The position numbers and the translations under genes were made by a program. A stretch of DNA of 64,000 bases from Levilactobacillus brevis (GTDB taxonomy: Bacteria; Bacillota; Bacilli; Lactobacillales; Lactobacillaceae): NCBI GenBank assembly GCA_003666485.1, contig CP032931.1:620001-684000 (forward strand), read 5' to 3'. The notes below the pieces were generated by a model. That model saw nothing but the letters and a program-made list of their open reading frames with translations, did no database searches and had not been told where the DNA came from. This document shows positions 1,378 to 55,099 of this stretch, one piece after another. How positions within the stretch are numbered: position 1 is the first letter of the stretch; the number at the start of each line of letters is the position of its first letter.

Positions 1378-1386
1378 GATTAGCAG

Positions 1387-1553
1387 CTGCTGCCAAATGT
1401 GGTCTGGAATGCTGTAGACGGATGAGACAAGCGGAACAGATGGTAACGCCTTGCTTTGAGCCGAAGACCGCGTCTCGAAGACGCCAGCTTCCAAGCAGGT
1501 CACTTGAAAACTCCCACGGCTGAGTCTAAATTCAGCTCACTCTCGGCTACGTG
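1387..1553 (+). repeat. Intergenic repeat family A, copy A1 (divergent)
   Basis: About 165 bp matching the copies near 47.5, 49.3 and 54.7 kb. The conserved core CTTTGAG...CTCGAAG can still pair because one A-T pair became G-T. The segment CACGGCTGAGTC and the tail CTCTCGGCTACG are shared. It lies just after the sigma regulator gene; no terminator of ordinary form was seen there. Confidence 0.75.
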
Positions 1554-6576: not shown

Positions 6577-6776
6577 CGAAACCAGGAGCCTACGTCAGCC
6601 AGGGTTCCGCCTGCTCTGGGGAACACCTCCAGCCTGAGGAGCGGTCTTCCGGTTCGCTTGAAAGCCTGGCAAAACCGGCCAGTCTTTCAAGGCGTCCCAC
6701 GCTGTAGGCTGAGAAAAGACCTCAGCCAACACCGTCGACACAGCTGGCTACACCCTGGCTGCCTCCGGCAAGTTGG
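6577..6776 (-). repeat. Intergenic repeat family B, copy B2
   Basis: Full-length copy in reverse orientation relative to B1, about 85% alike by eye. The hairpins GGCTGAG/CTCAGCC and CTTGAAAG/CTTTCAAG are kept; the second has other bases than in B1 on both arms, but still pairs. The 3' edge is GAAACCAGG, shared with B3. Confidence 0.8.
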
Positions 6777-11163: not shown

Positions 11164-12531
11164 ATGACAGACAACGTTTCAACGAAGTCGTCTTTGGTCG
11201 GCAGCGCAAACGGCCCGTCATTGCAAGAAATTAATGGATCCGTCGAGATTCCAAAGGAAAAGGGGTTCCTGAAGAATCTGTTGGCCTTTTCGGGACCAGG
11301 GGCGTTAGTGGCCGTGGGCTACATGGATCCGGGGAACTGGGTAACGTCGATCGGTGGGGGTGCCCAATACGGCTACCTGCTGATGTCAGTGATCTTGATT
11401 TCGAGTTTGATTGCGATGTTGTTACAGTATATGGCAGCTAAACTGGGGATTGTGACACAGATGGACTTGGCCCAAGCCACGCGGGCACACACAACGAAGC
11501 GTATCGGCGCCATTTTATGGGTCGTGACGGAGTTGGCTATCATGGCCACGGATATCGCTGAGGTCATTGGGGGCGCAATCGCCCTGCAGCTGCTGTTTGG
11601 CGTGCCACTGATCTTAGGGGTGTCGCTGACCGTCTTTGACGTTTTACTACTATTGTTACTGACGAAGCTGGGCTTCCGGAAAATCGAAGCCATCGTGGTC
11701 TGCTTGATTGCGGTCATCTTGGTGGTCTTTGCCTATGAAGTGGTGATTGCCCAACCCAATATGGGGGCCGCCGTCGCCAACTTCATTCCCAAACCAGAAA
11801 TTGTGCATCCGGGCCAATTGACCATGGCGTTGGGAATCGTTGGGGCGACCGTGATGCCGCATAACTTGTATTTGCACTCGTCGATTTCACAGACGCGAAA
11901 GTTCAACAGAGAAGACCCGGCAGAAATGGCGCGGGCCGTGAAATTTACTACGTGGGATTCTAACATTCAGCTGTTTGGGGCGTTCGTCATCAACTGTCTG
12001 TTACTGTTACTGGGGGCAGCGATGTTCTTTGGCAAAGGGACCGATCAACTGGGGACCTTTGGAAACCTGTATGCAGCGTTGCAAGATAACCATTTAGCCG
12101 GCGCAGTGGCCTCACCAGTACTGTCGACGTTGTTCGCGGTGGCATTGTTAGCCTCCGGGCAAAACTCCACGATTACCGGGACCTTAACGGGGCAAGTCAT
12201 TATGGAAGGTTTCATTAACATGAAGATTCCGTTGTGGGTCCGGCGCCTGGTCACACGGCTGATTTCGGTACTGCCCGTGATTGCGGCAACCATCTTCTTT
12301 GGCGGAAGCGAACGCGCCTTAGATAGTTTGCTAGTCAACTCGCAGGTCTTCTTGTCGATTGCCCTGCCATTTTCCATGATTCCATTGACGATTTTCACCT
12401 CATCGAAGAAGATCATGGGGGAAAAGTGGGTCAATAAGCGCTGGATCACCGTGTCGGCTTGGGCCTGCACGATTATTCTGACGCTGTTGAACATCCAGAT
12501 CGTATGGACGACACTGACGGATCTCTTTTAA
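11164..12531 (+). CDS. mntH: Nramp family Mn2+/Fe2+ : H+ symporter
   Basis: Imports manganese (and ferrous iron) with protons across the cell membrane. Manganese is the main antioxidant metal in lactobacilli. About 11 hydrophobic segments are seen. The Nramp metal site is clear: DPGNW in the first helix (about residue 60) and [14 protein letters not shown] in the sixth helix (about 230), with the unwound helix pattern. The cytoplasmic N-terminus is about 40 residues long. The ATG at 11164 follows a GGGGAGTGG site; in-frame codons before it are not needed. Length 455 fits the family. Confidence 0.93.
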
Positions 12532-12604
12532 ACTGCCCGAGACGCGCGAAATTGTTGGCAGGCTGACTGAAGTCTATTGACTTTTAGTGCCCGGGTCGGT
12601 ATCA

Positions 12605-12835
12605 TCAAGGACATAAGCTAAGAAACAGTCCAGTAGTGATGGCGGCTCCGGTTAAGAGATTTGACGGTGCTGAGAGTCAAAACGCCCGTCTTCACGAATT
12701 ACGCTGTGGAGCGGCCGAAGTTTCGGCGGGTCATTCCGTTAATGATGACGAGCGGTTGTCGATCGACAACAACTTGGGTGGTAACGCGGATTTTAATTCG
12801 TCCCTGATGGCAAGACGCCATTGGGGACTTTTTTG
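12605..12835 (+). promoter_or_regulatory. T-box riboswitch, tyrosine-responsive, upstream of tyrS
   Basis: Leader RNA that binds uncharged tRNA-Tyr and prevents termination. The T-box bulge GGGTGGTAACGCGG lies at 12776-12789. A terminator follows at about 12800-12834 (GTCCC and GATGGC pairing with GCCATT and GGGGAC, then T). A TAC triplet at about 12700, in GAATTACGC, is the likely specifier codon and agrees with tyrosine. The 5' boundary is approximate. Confidence 0.88.
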
Positions 12836-12864
12836 TTGTGAACGTAATTTTAGGAGGAAAAGAT

Positions 12865-14691: not shown

Positions 14692-16264
<1,573 letters not shown>

Positions 16265-16330
16265 ATATACGGAGGCTACACATACTTTGTCGAAACAATG
16301 GTCAGTTTTGAGGGGCTTACCTCTCAAACT

Positions 16331-16340
16331 TGTTCTTTGA
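16331..16340 (+). promoter_or_regulatory. boxA antitermination site in the 16S-23S spacer
   Basis: TGTTCTTTGA, followed by AAAACTAG, matches the boxA element that keeps rRNA transcription resistant to Rho. The spacer (16260-16481) carries no tRNA gene. Confidence 0.65.
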
Positions 16341-16481
16341 AAACTAGATATTATCAATAATTTTCTTATTAATTGTTTTTATTAAAAATAATTAAACCGA
16401 GAACACCGCGTAATTTTGAGTTTTTTAATTAGTTTATATCGCTAAATACTCAATTAATCAGCGATTACGACGTAATCGTTA

Positions 16482-19400
<2,919 letters not shown>

Positions 19401-19469
19401 GTAGAGTTGGTGTTCTCAAAGAAAATAAATTGATGATATCTAGTTTTGAGGGAATAAGTTCTCTTATAG

Positions 19470-19586
<117 letters not shown>

Positions 19587-22149: not shown

Positions 22150-22210
22150 GCGCTTAGCCACGACTAGCTAAGCGCACCTTAAAGAACAAGTGTGAGTATT
22201 GGCTAGTCGT
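22150..22210 (-). promoter_or_regulatory. Terminator-like hairpin with a competing upstream arm
   Basis: On the minus strand GCGCTTAGC and GCTAAGCGC form a 9-bp stem followed by TTTTAATTT. ACGACTAGC at 22202-22210 can pair with GCTAGTCGT at 22160-22168, which covers most of the loop and two stem bases. This is the form of an attenuator or pseudoknot ahead of the small frame at 22004-22096. Confidence 0.45.
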
Positions 22211-22492
22211 TGAGTTTTAGCACTATACGGCGTAGTTAGTTCATAACAGCTACATTAGATCAGGCCTTCTGTTGACCTGAACAGCTGACTCATTGGCGTT
22301 TCTCGACGTTTCTGAGCAGTAGCATTTTCCGTATAGGAGCCTCACCTAACAGCTTCTAATTTATCTTACGTACACAGTATATCTGGTTCTCACCCAGATT
22401 GCAAGAAAAAAGTCCAAGTTCTATCGAATAATAATTATAATAACTAACTATAAATATACTTATAACGCGCGGTTTACTAGCTGCCAACTAGT

Positions 22493-31950: not shown

Positions 31951-32164
31951 AAAAAGAGTTTGGGACAGACTTGCATGTGCTGCCGCACACCCCGAAACAT
32001 GAAAACGGCGGTCACTAACCTTTTGATGATAAACTATCATTGAAGGATTAGTGATCGTCGTTTTATTGGTACTTCTCTTTGCCGAGGGACAAACTGATCC
32101 ACCTAACTTGTGAGTACCCCGAAATATTGCCTTTGAGCATGAATATAAAATTACAAATTTTATT
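31951..32164 (+). repeat. 214-bp direct repeat D, copy D1
   Basis: Ungapped match to 34180-34393 with about six differences, all in the first 100 bases. It begins with a variant of AAGAGTCTGGGACAGACT and contains a long imperfect hairpin (AACGGCGGTCACTAACC with GGATTAGTGATCGTCGTT). It is probably the left end of the element that holds the IS1182-type transposase, left alone here. Copy D2 lies 2.2 kb away in the same direction. Confidence 0.88.
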
Positions 32165-34179: not shown

Positions 34180-34393
34180 AAAAAGAGTCTGGGACAGACT
34201 TGCATGTGCTACCGCACACCCCGAAACATGAAAACGACGGTCATTAACCTGTTGATGACAAACTATCATTGAAGGATTAGTGATCGTCGTTTTATTGGTA
34301 CTTCTCTTTGCCGAGGGACAAACTGATCCACCTAACTTGTGAGTACCCCGAAATATTGCCTTTGAGCATGAATATAAAATTACAAATTTTATT
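34180..34393 (+). repeat. 214-bp direct repeat D, copy D2
   Basis: Second copy of the repeat at 31951-32164. It directly abuts the sequence leading into the IS1182-type transposase. With D1 it brackets the AT-rich cassette. No gene was found in 34168-34460. Confidence 0.88.
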
Positions 34394-38053: not shown

Positions 38054-38240
38054 TTTTAGGCCGGTTCTCATGGAAGCGCCTTTCCGCAAGTAAAATTTTG
38101 GAATCGCTACCACCTGTAGTCTAGCAGAAAAGGTCTTGGGTGTAACGTGAGACGACGCGGATTGGTGAGAAAGTTTCGTAAGGCCCCGCCATTTGCCCAG
38201 CAGCATGGTACACTTAACCCACACGAAAAGAGGGGTTCCC

Positions 38241-39062
38241 ATGACAACGAATTGGAATCAACGAGAAATTCAGACCGTGACGACGGCGACCGACCTACAG
38301 CGGCTGTTTGCGCAGCTGGGATTAACGGTGACAGACACCTGCTTGGTACACACGGCGCTCAGTGCGTTTGGCTTTATCCCCGGCGGCGAGCAGACACTAG
38401 TTTCAGCTTTAAAGGCAACGCTGAATCAAGGCAATATTGCCATGCCCGCCCAAACGGCGGACTGGTCTGACCCGACTGACTGGGGTAATCCCCCAGTGCG
38501 TCCTGACCTCCAGGCGAAGGTCATTGCGGGGATGCCCGCCTTTGACCGTGACTCAACGCCGTGTCACATGATCGGGGTGACGCCCGAATACTTTCGGACG
38601 CTACCGGATACCCAGCGCAGTAACCATCCGACCTGTTCCATGACCGCCTGGGGCCGGGATGCCGCGGCAATCTGTGCGACCACCACGTTTGATCTGCCGT
38701 TTGGGGCCCAGGGACCGCTACAGAAGCTCTACGACCTGGATGCCAAGGTATTGTGCTTAGGCACGCCGTTTGAGAACGCCACGGCCATTCACTTGGCGGA
38801 TTCGACGCTGGACCGGCCGACGCATTTGGAGCGTGCCCCAATCAAGATCAATGGACAGACCAAGTGGATCAGCTTTCAAATGGCACCGCTGGAACCGTAT
38901 GATGATTTCAATGAAATGGGGGCGGCCTTCATGGCGGCATACCCACAAGCGGTCCAGGAGGCGACTATCGGTGATCACCGCACGGCCCGCGTCATGTCAA
39001 TGCGCCAGCTGGTCGACTTTGCCCGGACGTACTATCGGGCTAAGGACGCCGCGCAAGGGTAG
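38241..39062 (+). CDS. AAC(3)-family N-acetyltransferase
   Basis: A 273-residue member of the antibiotic N-acetyltransferase fold, which moves acetyl from acetyl-CoA to the 3-amino group of aminoglycosides or similar amines. Family marks: LVHTALSAFGFIPGGEQTLVSAL (residues about 35-57), GNIAMPAQTADWSDP, NHPTCSMTAWGRDA (about 130) and VLCLGTPFENATAIHLAD (about 170), with the catalytic histidine in the last. Chromosomal Lactobacillus versions are not proven to give resistance. Start chosen at 38241 after GAGGGG. Confidence 0.85.
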   Translation: MTTNWNQREIQTVTTATDLQRLFAQLGLTVTDTCLVHTALSAFGFIPGGEQTLVSALKATLNQGNIAMPAQTADWSDPTDWGNPPVRPDLQAKVIAGMPAFDRDSTPCHMIGVTPEYFRTLPDTQRSNHPTCSMTAWGRDAAAICATTTFDLPFGAQGPLQKLYDLDAKVLCLGTPFENATAIHLADSTLDRPTHLERAPIKINGQTKWISFQMAPLEPYDDFNEMGAAFMAAYPQAVQEATIGDHRTARVMSMRQLVDFARTYYRAKDAAQG

Positions 39063-45557: not shown

Positions 45558-45785
45558 TTAGAGGGCTTTAACTTTAGAACTCTTCACGGTGTAGCCGAGG
45601 TCGGTGACCGTGTCAGCGAGGCTTTCAGCGGTCACTTGGCTGTCATCGAAGTCTGCCTTGATCTTGCTGGCGTTGAAGAGGACCTTGACGTTTTCCACGC
45701 CATCCTTCTTACTCAGCGCGCCTTCAATCTTGGTCATGCAAGAGGGGCAGGTCAATGCGTCTAACTTCATCGTTACTTTACTCAT
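45558..45785 (-). CDS. Heavy-metal-associated (HMA) domain protein, copy 1
   Basis: A 75-residue metallochaperone-like protein with a ferredoxin-like fold and the metal-binding CPSC motif (LTCPSCMTKIEGALSK, residues 11-26). It is 63 of 75 residues identical to the gene just upstream, so it is a tandem duplicate. Good ribosome site AGGAGG. The nearby ATPase lacks such a domain, so these free domains may deliver metal to it. Copper and zinc usually bind CxxC; which metal is used here is not known. Confidence 0.92.
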   Translation of the reverse strand: MSKVTMKLDALTCPSCMTKIEGALSKKDGVENVKVLFNASKIKADFDDSQVTAESLADTVTDLGYTVKSSKVKAL

Positions 45786-45807
45786 AATTGAAAACCTCCT
45801 AATGGTT

Positions 45808-46035
45808 TTAAAGTGCTTTAACTTTACTACTCTGAACGGCGTAGCCTAAATCGGTTACGGTGGTGGCTAAATCTTCGGCTGAAACGGTCTGGTCGTCGAA
45901 TTCGGCTTTGACCTTGCTGGCGTTGAAGAGGACCTTGACGTTTTTGACGCCAGCCTTCTTACTTAGCGCGCCTTCGATCTTGGTCATGCAAGACGGGCAG
46001 GTCAGATCATCTAACTTCATGGTTACTTTACTCAT
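45808..46035 (-). CDS. Heavy-metal-associated (HMA) domain protein, copy 2
   Basis: Also 75 residues, with LTCPSCMTKIEGALSK at residues 11-26. First gene of the operon HMA-HMA-dps. GGAGG precedes the ATG. Its promoter carries an FNR-type box at 46108, at the same spacing as the ATPase promoter. Confidence 0.92.
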   Translation of the reverse strand: MSKVTMKLDDLTCPSCMTKIEGALSKKAGVKNVKVLFNASKVKAEFDDQTVSAEDLATTVTDLGYAVQSSKVKAL

Positions 46036-46107
46036 AATGAAAACCTCCTTCGGCTTTTTCGTTTGCCTTGATTACATGACTTAGTATACGGGCGACTGGG
46101 CGAAAAG

Positions 46108-46272: not shown

Positions 46273-47442
46273 ATGTGGAAAACCAAAAGAGAAGTCAGTA
46301 TGGCGGGGATTGTGTCGGCGACCTTACTGCTTAATGCCGCTGCGGCGTGTATGTGGCCGTTAACTACAGTCTACATGCACAATCAGCTCCACCAGACGTT
46401 AACGCTAGCAGGTATTGCGTTGCTGGGGATGTCATTATGTATGATTCTGGGCAATTGGCTTGGTGGGTGGCTGTTTGACAATTGGTCGCCGTTTTACTCG
46501 GGAATCGTGGGGACGCTGTGTTCCTTTGTTCCGATGACGACACTGATATTCTTCCATGGTTGGCCGATCTTTGGTGTGATGCTCCTGCTGATCGGACTGG
46601 GCGACGGTATCGTGATGACCGTCGTCAATTCCTTTGCGGCCACGGTGAAGACGGTACAGAGCCGTAAAGTTTTCAATTACCTCTATATTGGGATGAACTT
46701 AGGGGTCGTTGTCGGGACCTTGATGGTCGGGGTCCTGATGAAACACGGCGTCACGCTGGTCTTCTCGGTGGCGGCGGTCAGCTATTTGGCCCTACTACTG
46801 ATCTTCTTCTTTGACTTCAGAGCTAAGATTGAGAAGAAGACTTACACGCACGCCAAGGGGCCGGTCAAGCCAGCCCGGTTGAAATTGATCTGGCTGATCA
46901 GCGCGTTGGTCTTCGCCCTGTACATGAGTTATTCCTTATGGGAAAGTGTCATCTCGGTCCACATGACCAATCTGGGCATCTCATTTGAAAAATACAGTCT
47001 CTTGTGGACGCTCAATGGCTTGATGATCGTCTTTGGCCAGCCAATCGTGAACCGCATCGGCTCGGACTTTAAGTTGAGTTCGCAGATTTGGGTGGGGACG
47101 TTGGTCTTCATCCTGTCATTCTTGTTGCTGGTCTTTGCCAAGAGCTACGTGATGTTCGTGGTGACCATGGTCATCTTGACGCTGGGTGAAATGACCGGGT
47201 TCCCGGGGATTCCGGCGTGGATCGACGGCTTGGCTGGTGACAACGACAAGGGGAAATTCCAAGGCATTTACAACATGGCGATTTCCTTTGGTCGGGCGGT
47301 CGGACCGCTATATGGCGGGCTGATCATTGAGTATGGCAGCTATCGGTCCCTGTTCTGGTCGGTCACGGCGCTGATGCTGTTGGCGTTGGCTGCGGTGATG
47401 ATCGTCAATCACCGAGGAGCGGCGCGAGTGAAGCGCGATTAA
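46273..47442 (+). CDS. MFS transporter, drug:H+ antiporter-like
   Basis: 389 residues, about 12 hydrophobic segments. The A-motif region GNWLGGWLFDNWSP lies after helix 2 (about residues 62-75), and RAVGPLYGGLI in the C-half is typical of MFS exporters. Substrate unknown. GTGAGGG ribosome site. Single gene with a terminator after it. It follows the metal operon divergently and lies 145 bp from its FNR-type box; a role in metal export is not indicated by sequence. Confidence 0.85.
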   Translation: MWKTKREVSMAGIVSATLLLNAAAACMWPLTTVYMHNQLHQTLTLAGIALLGMSLCMILGNWLGGWLFDNWSPFYSGIVGTLCSFVPMTTLIFFHGWPIFGVMLLLIGLGDGIVMTVVNSFAATVKTVQSRKVFNYLYIGMNLGVVVGTLMVGVLMKHGVTLVFSVAAVSYLALLLIFFFDFRAKIEKKTYTHAKGPVKPARLKLIWLISALVFALYMSYSLWESVISVHMTNLGISFEKYSLLWTLNGLMIVFGQPIVNRIGSDFKLSSQIWVGTLVFILSFLLLVFAKSYVMFVVTMVILTLGEMTGFPGIPAWIDGLAGDNDKGKFQGIYNMAISFGRAVGPLYGGLIIEYGSYRSLFWSVTALMLLALAAVMIVNHRGAARVKRD

Positions 47443-47458
47443 AAATGATTAAGGTTAG

Positions 47459-47489
47459 CGTGGTCCGGTGTCTGGGGACCACGTTTTTT
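47459..47489 (+). terminator. Rho-independent terminator of the MFS gene
   Basis: CGTGGTCC pairs perfectly with GGACCACG; six T follow. Confidence 0.9.
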
Positions 47490-47524
47490 GTTTTCAGGCG
47501 GTTGAAAGGAGAGGTATGGTTGGA

Positions 47525-47720
47525 ACTGGCCGCCTCCCGTCCGCCAAATATGGGTCGGAACGCGGTGGGCGGACGGGGCGAGCCACAAGGCGGTCTCGCC
47601 ACCTCGCCTTTGAGCCGAAATACACGTCTCAAAGACGCCACTTACCCAAGCAGCATAGACCATACTGCTTGGGTAAGTCCCACGGCTGAACCCATATTTG
47701 GCGAACTCCCGGCTACGAGG
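47525..47720 (+). repeat. Intergenic repeat family A, copy A3 (full length)
   Basis: Outer arms CGCCAAATATGGG and CCCATATTTGGCG pair across the element. Inside are a CTTTGAG/CTCAAAG hairpin and a longer one, CTTACCCAAGCAG/CTGCTTGGGTAAG, with 13 perfect pairs. Very similar to A4 at 49244, but the last hairpin has completely different bases there. The following 47721-48109 holds no gene. Confidence 0.85.
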
Positions 47721-49243: not shown

Positions 49244-49434
49244 CTGGCCACCTACTGTCCGCCAAATATGGGTTGGAACGCGGTTGGCGGACGGGTCGAG
49301 CCAAGGAGCGGTCTCGACGCCTCGCCTTTGAGCCGAAGAACACGTCTCAAAGACGCCAGTTTCCTAAGTGGCATGAATCGCGCCACTAAGGAAACTCCCA
49401 CGGCTGAACCCATATTTGGCGGACTCTCGGTTAC
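49244..49434 (+). repeat. Intergenic repeat family A, copy A4 (full length)
   Basis: GTCCGCCAAATATGGG and CCCATATTTGGCGGAC form perfect 16-base outer arms. GTCCGCCAA can also pair with the nearer TTGGCGGAC, so two folds are possible. The inner hairpins CTTTGAG/CTCAAAG and TTTCCTAAGTGGC/GCCACTAAGGAAA are kept. Confidence 0.87.
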
Positions 49435-49531
49435 AGGTGTGCTTGCCAACAAAAGTCGACTTAACCCTTGGTAGCAGTTAGTTTGTCACTTAACTCTTGT
49501 CCAATGCAATGTTACTGATAGTCATCAACTT

Positions 49532-49645
49532 GCTGGAGGCGACTAGGGTGGAGCCGGCTGAACCGGAAGATCACTTCTCAGGCTGTAGGTGTTCCCCAGA
49601 GCAGGTGGAACCCTGGCAGACGCAGGTTCCTGGTTTCACTAATTT
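49532..49645 (+). repeat. Intergenic repeat family B, copy B3 (internal deletion)
   Basis: Carries the two ends of repeat B (the GGAGGCGACTAGGGTGGAGC start and the GGTGTTCCCCAGAGCAGG end) without the middle hairpins. About 100 bp after repeat A4. Confidence 0.7.
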
Positions 49646-54659: not shown

Positions 54660-54699
54660 CTTTGGATTAAACGTGGTCGCCTGCCGTTGCGTGAAACTC

Positions 54700-54857
54700 T
54701 GGGCTGGAACGCTGGGGGAGGACGGCCCGAGCCAAAGCCCGGTCTCGGACCTTGCTTTGAGCCGAAAAGCGCGTCTCAAAGACACCAATTGATCAGCAAA
54801 GAGCGCTGCTAAATTCCCCGGCTGAGCCCAGATTTCACTTCACTCTCGGCTACGAAG
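54700..54857 (+). repeat. Intergenic repeat family A, copy A5
   Basis: Shares GGGCTGGAACGC, CCCGAGCCAAAG, the CTTTGAG/CTCAAAG hairpin and the GGCTGAGCCCA and CTCTCGGCTACG parts. The variable hairpin is AATTGATCAGC with GCTGCTAAATT (9 of 11 pairs). Confidence 0.8.
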
Positions 54858-54899
54858 TTGTTGCCAATAATGGCTTGTCCCCAGTAACTCGGTACAAAA

Positions 54900-54955
54900 C
54901 GCCAGTAAACACTGCCGACACAGCTGGCTTCACCCTGGCTGCCTCCGGCGATATG
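54900..54955 (-). repeat. Fragment of repeat family B, copy B4
   Basis: The reverse complement reads GCCGGAGGCAGCCAGGGTG, then AGCCAGCTGTGTCGGC, which is only the left end of repeat B. It lies between A5 and A6. Confidence 0.7.
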
Positions 54956-55014
54956 GGATTTTATCAGAGGTGTTGTGTTAAACCATGTATTGTTGTGGCT
55001 AGCCATTAATTGGA

Positions 55015-55099
55015 GATAGTTTGCTAAATATGACCTCAGGATTAGTCCGGTCCGTCCACCGCGTTTCAGACCATATTTAGCGAATGGCAAGGCGGCCAG
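55015..55099 (-). repeat. Intergenic repeat family A, copy A6 (deleted form, reverse)
   Basis: Keeps only the two ends of repeat A. The outer arms read GCTAAATATGG and CATATTTAGC in place of GCCAAATATGG and CATATTTGGC, a paired C-to-T and G-to-A exchange that preserves the stem. Confidence 0.75.

Follow-up and report, generated by a model that had tools for sequence, protein, structure and literature searches.

The window analysed here, a 64,000-nucleotide stretch, lies on the 2.99-Mb chromosome contig (C1) of a Levilactobacillus genome of 3.10 Mb in 5 contigs. It contains a full rRNA operon (14692-19586), a T-box leader and an M-box riboswitch (12611-12808 and 22195-22360), a gene of the Antibiotic_NAT (aminoglycoside 3-N-acetyltransferase) family (38193-39062) and an MFS gene (46273-47442). 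Between its genes lie several copies of a non-coding repeat of about 190 nt, here called unit A, and of a homologous unit type, B. With a covariance model of A (R1) and one of B (R2), and with direct and inverted repeat searches of the window, we located the following features, where coordinates are those of the window (chromosome coordinates minus 620000):

47526-47716, minus strand: A unit, full length, 219.1 bits
49244-49434, minus strand: A unit, full length, 218.7 bits, which forms a head-to-head pair with the B part at 49531-49627
49531-49627 (669531-669627 on the contig), plus strand: partial B unit, 40.7 bits, upstream of the A unit at 49244 and on the opposite strand
54673-54853, minus strand: A unit of a diverged subtype (A'), 122.6 bits
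54896-54959, minus strand: stretch similar to part of B, just upstream of the A' unit on the same strand (strand read by comparison with B)
55009-55099, plus strand: A unit with its interior lost, 33.3 bits, outer stem kept by paired changes
1379-1550, minus strand: diverged A unit, 67.9 bits
1727-1779, minus strand: fragment of an A unit (its 5' part when read on minus)
1863-2046 (621863-622046), plus strand: B unit, full length, 204.8 bits, upstream (gap 313 bp) and on the opposite strand of the A unit at 1379
6588-6770 (626588-626770), minus strand: B unit, full length, 197.6 bits
39229-39371, plus strand: A unit with shortened interior, 64.1 bits, about 170 bp after the Antibiotic_NAT gene

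The observation in the original prediction is confirmed, and it understates what is present. The six copies it listed are all found, and the fragment it placed near 1731 is the one at 1727-1779. The outer arms pair, as predicted, and the paired change to GCTAAATATG/CATATTTAGC (from about 55023) is real. The inner hairpin pairs with different letters in the copies at 47526 and 49244, but the claim that its arms share almost no bases is overstated, since in register 8 of the first 14 letters of one arm agree by our count and the two copies are 81% identical overall. Two further repeats of the window were seen: a 214-bp direct repeat, 97% identical, at 31951-32164 and 34180-34393 (2.2 kb apart), which the unit models did not find, and two repeat pairs with 250-bp spacing (78% and 88% identical) at 45558-46043, perhaps repeated protein domains.

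To determine how many copies the genome carries, we first ran a BLAST search, which gave 42 matches with 40 of 268 candidates scored. Thirty of these plus the second window copy were aligned (88% mean column identity over the 31) and used to build R1, which found at least 150 A copies at 147-225 bits (150 scored, of 1472 candidates in the first look). R2 gave 123 matches with 150 of 1287 candidates scored, 88 of them at 139 bits or more, although at least 6 of the weaker ones lie on A units. All listed matches were on C1 and none on the contigs C2-C5, of which C2 resembles plasmids of Lactiplantibacillus, Levilactobacillus and other Lactobacillaceae.

Whereas the copies had originally been read on the plus strand, folding of the copy at 47526 showed that the minus strand is the better-folding one (-112.4 kcal/mol, z -7.3, against -93.5 kcal/mol, z -5.9, for the plus strand, each with 200 shuffles). 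Against these shuffles, and with 150 matches in the genome (the scoring cap), the structured repeat is not a product of chance. On that strand the unit reads GTAGCCGAGAGTCCGCCAAATATGGGTTCAGCCGTGGGA..., with a predicted outer stem (18 model pairs), an inner stem, a variable hairpin and two hairpins with AGAC...GGCU, followed by a conserved CGTCCGCCCAC stretch. At the foot of the outer stem of own copies, the internal loop GAGAG/GGUAG resembles, by its letters alone, the loop E motif of bacterial 5S rRNA. Some relatives (loci L069-L078) have a shorter A subtype of about 160 nt, most rows of which lack the fourth hairpin, while L070 instead lacks the third.

We then asked whether the fold is kept while the letters change. 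In relatives aligned to the model, 95.0% of 2306 cells pair and 56 of 61 pairs have a two-sided change, against 31.6-47.0% of cells in slid controls. Since that alignment was fitted to the structure, we repeated the analysis on plain MAFFT alignments. For A (25 sequences) 97.2% of cells pair and 42 of 59 pairs show two-sided changes (slid 32.1-46.5%), and for B (27 sequences) the values are 97.7% and 32 of 55 (slid 29.1-44.1%). In each case 0 of 500 shuffles reach the observed values, but related sequences can produce this without structure, so that the slid controls and the number of two-sided pairs carry the weight. The covariation is very strong.

On the folded strand the letters allow G-U far more than A-C: 116 to 7 in own copies, 100 to 25 in relatives and 122 to 22 in B, or 40:7, 37:11 and 47:11 when pairs whose majority is G-U are left out (about 4:1). 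Cells are not independent events, but orientation to genes is near random, so a mutation bias of one strand is an unlikely cause. This asymmetry is the main argument against a cruciform or hairpin-templated repair, in which both strands would extrude and paired changes would arise by copying one arm from the other. The long near-perfect stems would fit such a process, as would the four of five consecutive outer-stem pairs changed on both sides between orthologous copies (R217 A- 7904) of two sister species, G020 and G042. However, G-U exceeds A-C on one strand in A and B alike, and unpaired junction letters are as slow as stems (below), and we consider this reading very unlikely.

Weaker R1 matches in relatives turned out to be unit B, which has the same plan as A. 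In order to analyze how units are arranged, we examined 119 A copies with 450 bp on both sides (2 of 121 lacked these flanks). Of these, 71 have another unit within 450 bp upstream, 65 on the opposite strand (44 B, 15 A' and 6 A, with median gaps of 91, 200 and 354 bp) and 6 on the same strand; 5 have any unit downstream, and 48 have none upstream. A' is here simply the lower-scoring part of the 150 aligned R1 matches. In the window the pairs are 49244/49531 and, with a wider gap, 1379/1863, while at 54673-55099 the A' unit, the B-like stretch on the same strand and the hollow A unit on the other strand lie together in an order that departs from the usual head-to-head plan. An early idea that the element is about 330 bp with fixed terminal repeats was dropped because the outer ends differ between loci.

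The spacer is poorly conserved and shows no clear promoter (mean best score 5.35 against 4.91 shuffled towards A, and 5.82 against 4.95 towards B). No sigma-70-like promoter is enriched upstream of A, where 2 of 93 regions exceed the shuffled 95% level; the downstream region read antisense, meant as a control, has 10 of 94. Seen along the folded strand, the genes flanking 92 own copies were +- 32, -- 31, ++ 23 and -+ 6, and 2 copies overlapped an ORF over 600 bp. Together with indels of any length in the alignments, this agrees with an intergenic element of no coding capacity. Among sampled gaps of 250 bp or more, an element is present in 39 of 48 convergent, 72 of 91 tandem and 8 of 23 divergent ones. 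The own-genome stretches were chosen around A copies, so that these context counts and the counts of unit arrangement above are not a random sample of the genome; ORFs were called by length only, and one set of own copies left out 3 of 97 listed.

Because the elements lie after genes and avoid divergent gaps, they could be cis-acting 3' untranslated structures, in which read-through transcripts fold and are stopped, trimmed or stabilised and the head-to-head pair serves both directions. However, solo A copies in tandem contexts show no orientation preference (35 ++ and 40 --), and the share of broken pairs is 0.0106 where an upstream gene could read the unit in sense (69 copies) and 0.0118 elsewhere (49 copies; p 0.99). 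At least the unit at 47526 lies beyond a terminator-like hairpin and T run, read by eye at about 47460-47490, and avoiding promoters and genes also fits tolerated insertions. A cis role in transcripts is thus not supported, and this reading appears unlikely.

To determine the distribution of the family, we searched relatives with R1, which matched the own genome and 22 of 23 same-genus relatives (G021 being the one without copies) and gave one weak match among 16 genomes from other families. Order-wide, 7 of 295 genomes matched, of which 4 lie in three other genera of the family. A broader model (R3), with only 8 candidates scored per genome, found units in at least 88 of 301 family genomes and 11 of 40 genera. 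Exact matches to a consensus stretch in a collection of named genomes were 3 loci, in Levilactobacillus mulengensis and L. humaensis. No match was found at E 1e-5 in plasmids (three A queries and one B query) or phages (one A query), nor in viral contigs with an exact pattern, a weak search; records of the own genome or one very near it may be missing from these collections. No Rfam 15 hit lies on a unit, either in the window at gathering threshold, in the locus L009 at E up to 5 or in 14 relatives' loci at E up to 1, among families with an accession, which leaves out motifs such as Lacto-int (PMC2864571). In one relative, a known sRNA, Rfam Ref68 (Lacto-3 RNA; L070, 500-633), lies about 870 bp from a unit.

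We next followed single loci through evolution. Within 500 bp downstream of the MFS gene at 46273-47442 an A-like unit is found in the own genome and in the relatives G011, G020, G042 and G022, that is, in 5 of 28 orthologous loci, some of which may be cut by contig ends; the closest relative in that gene, G019, has none there. Three regions of the sister species G020, G011 and G042 hold 22, 32 and 26 units by model, respectively, with 49 same-place, same-type comparisons among the three pairs. There are also gains or losses. One A is present in G011 and G042 but absent in G020, with TAAC on both sides, where insertion or deletion between 4-bp repeats cannot be told apart; one A is lost in G011 between 9-bp direct repeats; and at two sites G011 holds B where the others hold A, at one of them after a B fragment. 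G011 also carries, at about 12300-12860 of locus L231 (contig C9, 45000-61500), about 190 bp with a ~70-bp direct duplication that is not in G020 and G042 and seems to belong to a different repeat containing GCACGTTTCAGA.

Core divergence between orthologs ranges from 2 to 23%. At the locus R217 A 12761 the G042 core differs from those of G020 and G011 at 38/176 and 39/176, while G020 and G011 differ at 7/186, although flanks differ about equally in all three pairs (11-13 of 60 upstream, 4-5 of 59-60 downstream). We read such whole-core swaps as ectopic gene conversion.

In the 29 of 49 comparisons under 9% divergence, stems differ at 82/3157 (2.6%), conserved unpaired letters at 22/784 (2.8%) and variable unpaired letters at 139/1186 (11.7%), compared with 13.0, 2.0 and 0.7% at third, first and second codon positions and 7.3% in other intergenic DNA. 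Stems therefore differ 4-5 times less than variable unpaired letters, which change at near third-codon rate. The 9% cut is ours, and over all 49 comparisons the values are 6.4, 3.3 and 18.0%. The comparisons are pairwise among three species and so not independent, and "conserved unpaired" was defined from the same family alignment. In the more diverged class 117 pairs changed on both sides and still pair against 7 broken by two-sided changes, with 39 one-sided changes keeping and 32 breaking a pair. In the less diverged class 25 one-sided changes keep and 35 break a pair. Fixed copies thus appear held to their fold by rate, while single changes show no clear excess of pair-keeping ones. A simpler measure with 60-bp flanks, on 34 ortholog comparisons by hit overlap, gave core values of 9.1% (A, 14) and 8.4% (B, 20), upstream 16.3 and 14.3%, and downstream 7.0 and 11.7%, so that the downstream flank of A is not faster than the core on that measure.

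The resemblance of the best own copies to each other and the core swaps could also reflect a burst of ordinary repeats with no present function, kept alike by gene conversion alone. We regard this as most improbable, since covariation spans many species and stems change at about a quarter of the rate of variable unpaired letters in the 29 low-divergence comparisons.

A more serious, though still tentative, alternative is selfish DNA whose two ends (A on one strand, B or A' on the other) would be recognised as folded single-stranded DNA by an unknown recombinase, the fold being needed for spread and the strand bias being that of the transferred strand. The head-to-head geometry is that of transposon ends, sister species differ in presence and absence (including the TAAC site), and the units are independent of neighbouring transcription and lack a detected promoter. 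G-T is also better tolerated than A-C in DNA hairpins, and folded single-stranded DNA would give an asymmetry of the same sign. On the other hand, constraint on stems in copies that stay in place is not expected if the fold matters only for moving, and the absence of plasmid, phage or viral matches in the searches made is odd for something mobile. The bias with replication is weak, with 88 of 150 copies on the leading strand by strand and GC skew of the sampled stretches. The obvious single-strand DNA enzyme, the Y1 transposase (PF01797, the only transposase family surveyed), does not track copy number: the copy-rich relatives G002, G011, G016 and G022 have none and the copy-free G021 has one. 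The own genome has 5 matches, so presence is not excluded there.

The family works most like BOX and REP/BIME repeats. BOX, RUP and SPRITE of Streptococcus pneumoniae (PMC3049150) are high-copy, non-autonomous small interspersed repeats, predicted to fold if transcribed, with about half of insertions present in all strains and slow turnover, and appear parasitic according to their authors. BOX is modular (boxA-boxB-boxC); covariation of a junction fold across genera, two homologous units head to head, strand asymmetry and constraint in place set the present family apart. REP/BIME repeats of enterobacteria and pseudomonads are inverted units in composites between genes, avoiding promoters, with one folded strand recognised. 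The inverted two-unit composite is found here too, but REP units are short hairpins tied to a Y1-type RAYT enzyme, whereas units here are about 190 nt and the Y1 link fails, which also speaks against IS200/IS605-type mobilisation. bcr1 of the Bacillus cereus group, a different bacterial group, is intergenic, foldable and about 150-170 bp, and a title cited in PMC2267715 speaks of its mobile-element characteristics. Miniature inverted-repeat transposable elements (MITEs) are short and non-coding with inverted ends; here the ends are complex folds, complementary outer ends seen by eye at several loci differ in sequence between loci, and no constant terminal repeat or secure target duplication was found. 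A review of these elements (PMC10969869) mentions neither Lactobac-, Levilactobacillus or Lactiplantibacillus names nor bcr1 or RNA secondary structure. Literature searches, judged from titles and abstract openings and with subscription papers mostly outside their reach, yielded no description of this family that we could recognise.

The interpretation in the original prediction is partly supported. Selection or a mechanism acting on structure is supported; of the three options it left open, a cruciform is disfavoured, a structured RNA fits the strand asymmetry but lacks a detected promoter or any dependence on neighbouring gene direction, and a MITE-like element fits in part (non-coding, intergenic, high copy, gained or lost between species), the unit being often only half of a two-unit element. 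We favour, as somewhat more likely than not, a large, old family of non-autonomous, BOX/BIME-like intergenic repeats of Lactobacillaceae, in which a full element tends to be two homologous units (A facing B, or A facing A'), head to head with 3' ends outward, each selected as a folded single strand of one polarity, probably RNA. Our comparisons show the fold, its favoured strand, the head-to-head arrangement, the copy number and the wide distribution, and comparison of three sister species supports the constraint on stems and junction letters in place and the core swaps. It is only inferred, in contrast, that the selected molecule is RNA made by low-level or read-through transcription, that a protein or other partner recognises the repeated AGAC/GGCU hairpins and junction, and that copies arose by rare mobilisation in trans, as proposed for BOX-type repeats, and are kept alike by ectopic gene conversion, as we infer here. 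A more far-reaching possibility, which we hold only tentatively, is a new class of structured RNA, a multi-hairpin junction RNA present in hundreds of copies per chromosome across Lactobacillaceae, often as head-to-head pairs, that would be expressed from unconventional or pervasive transcription and bind a dedicated partner through these hairpins or, equally, that the units are the folded single-strand ends of an unknown mobilisation system.

Bacterial intergenic repeats are usually treated as decaying parasites with generic hairpins. Here a complex fold is conserved by compensating changes across genera, on one strand, in copies that stay in place, with no promoter found and no dependence on neighbouring genes. 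That gives a concrete, testable system for asking whether such repeats work for the cell or only for themselves. The number of copies within one genome makes covariation and selection unusually easy to measure.
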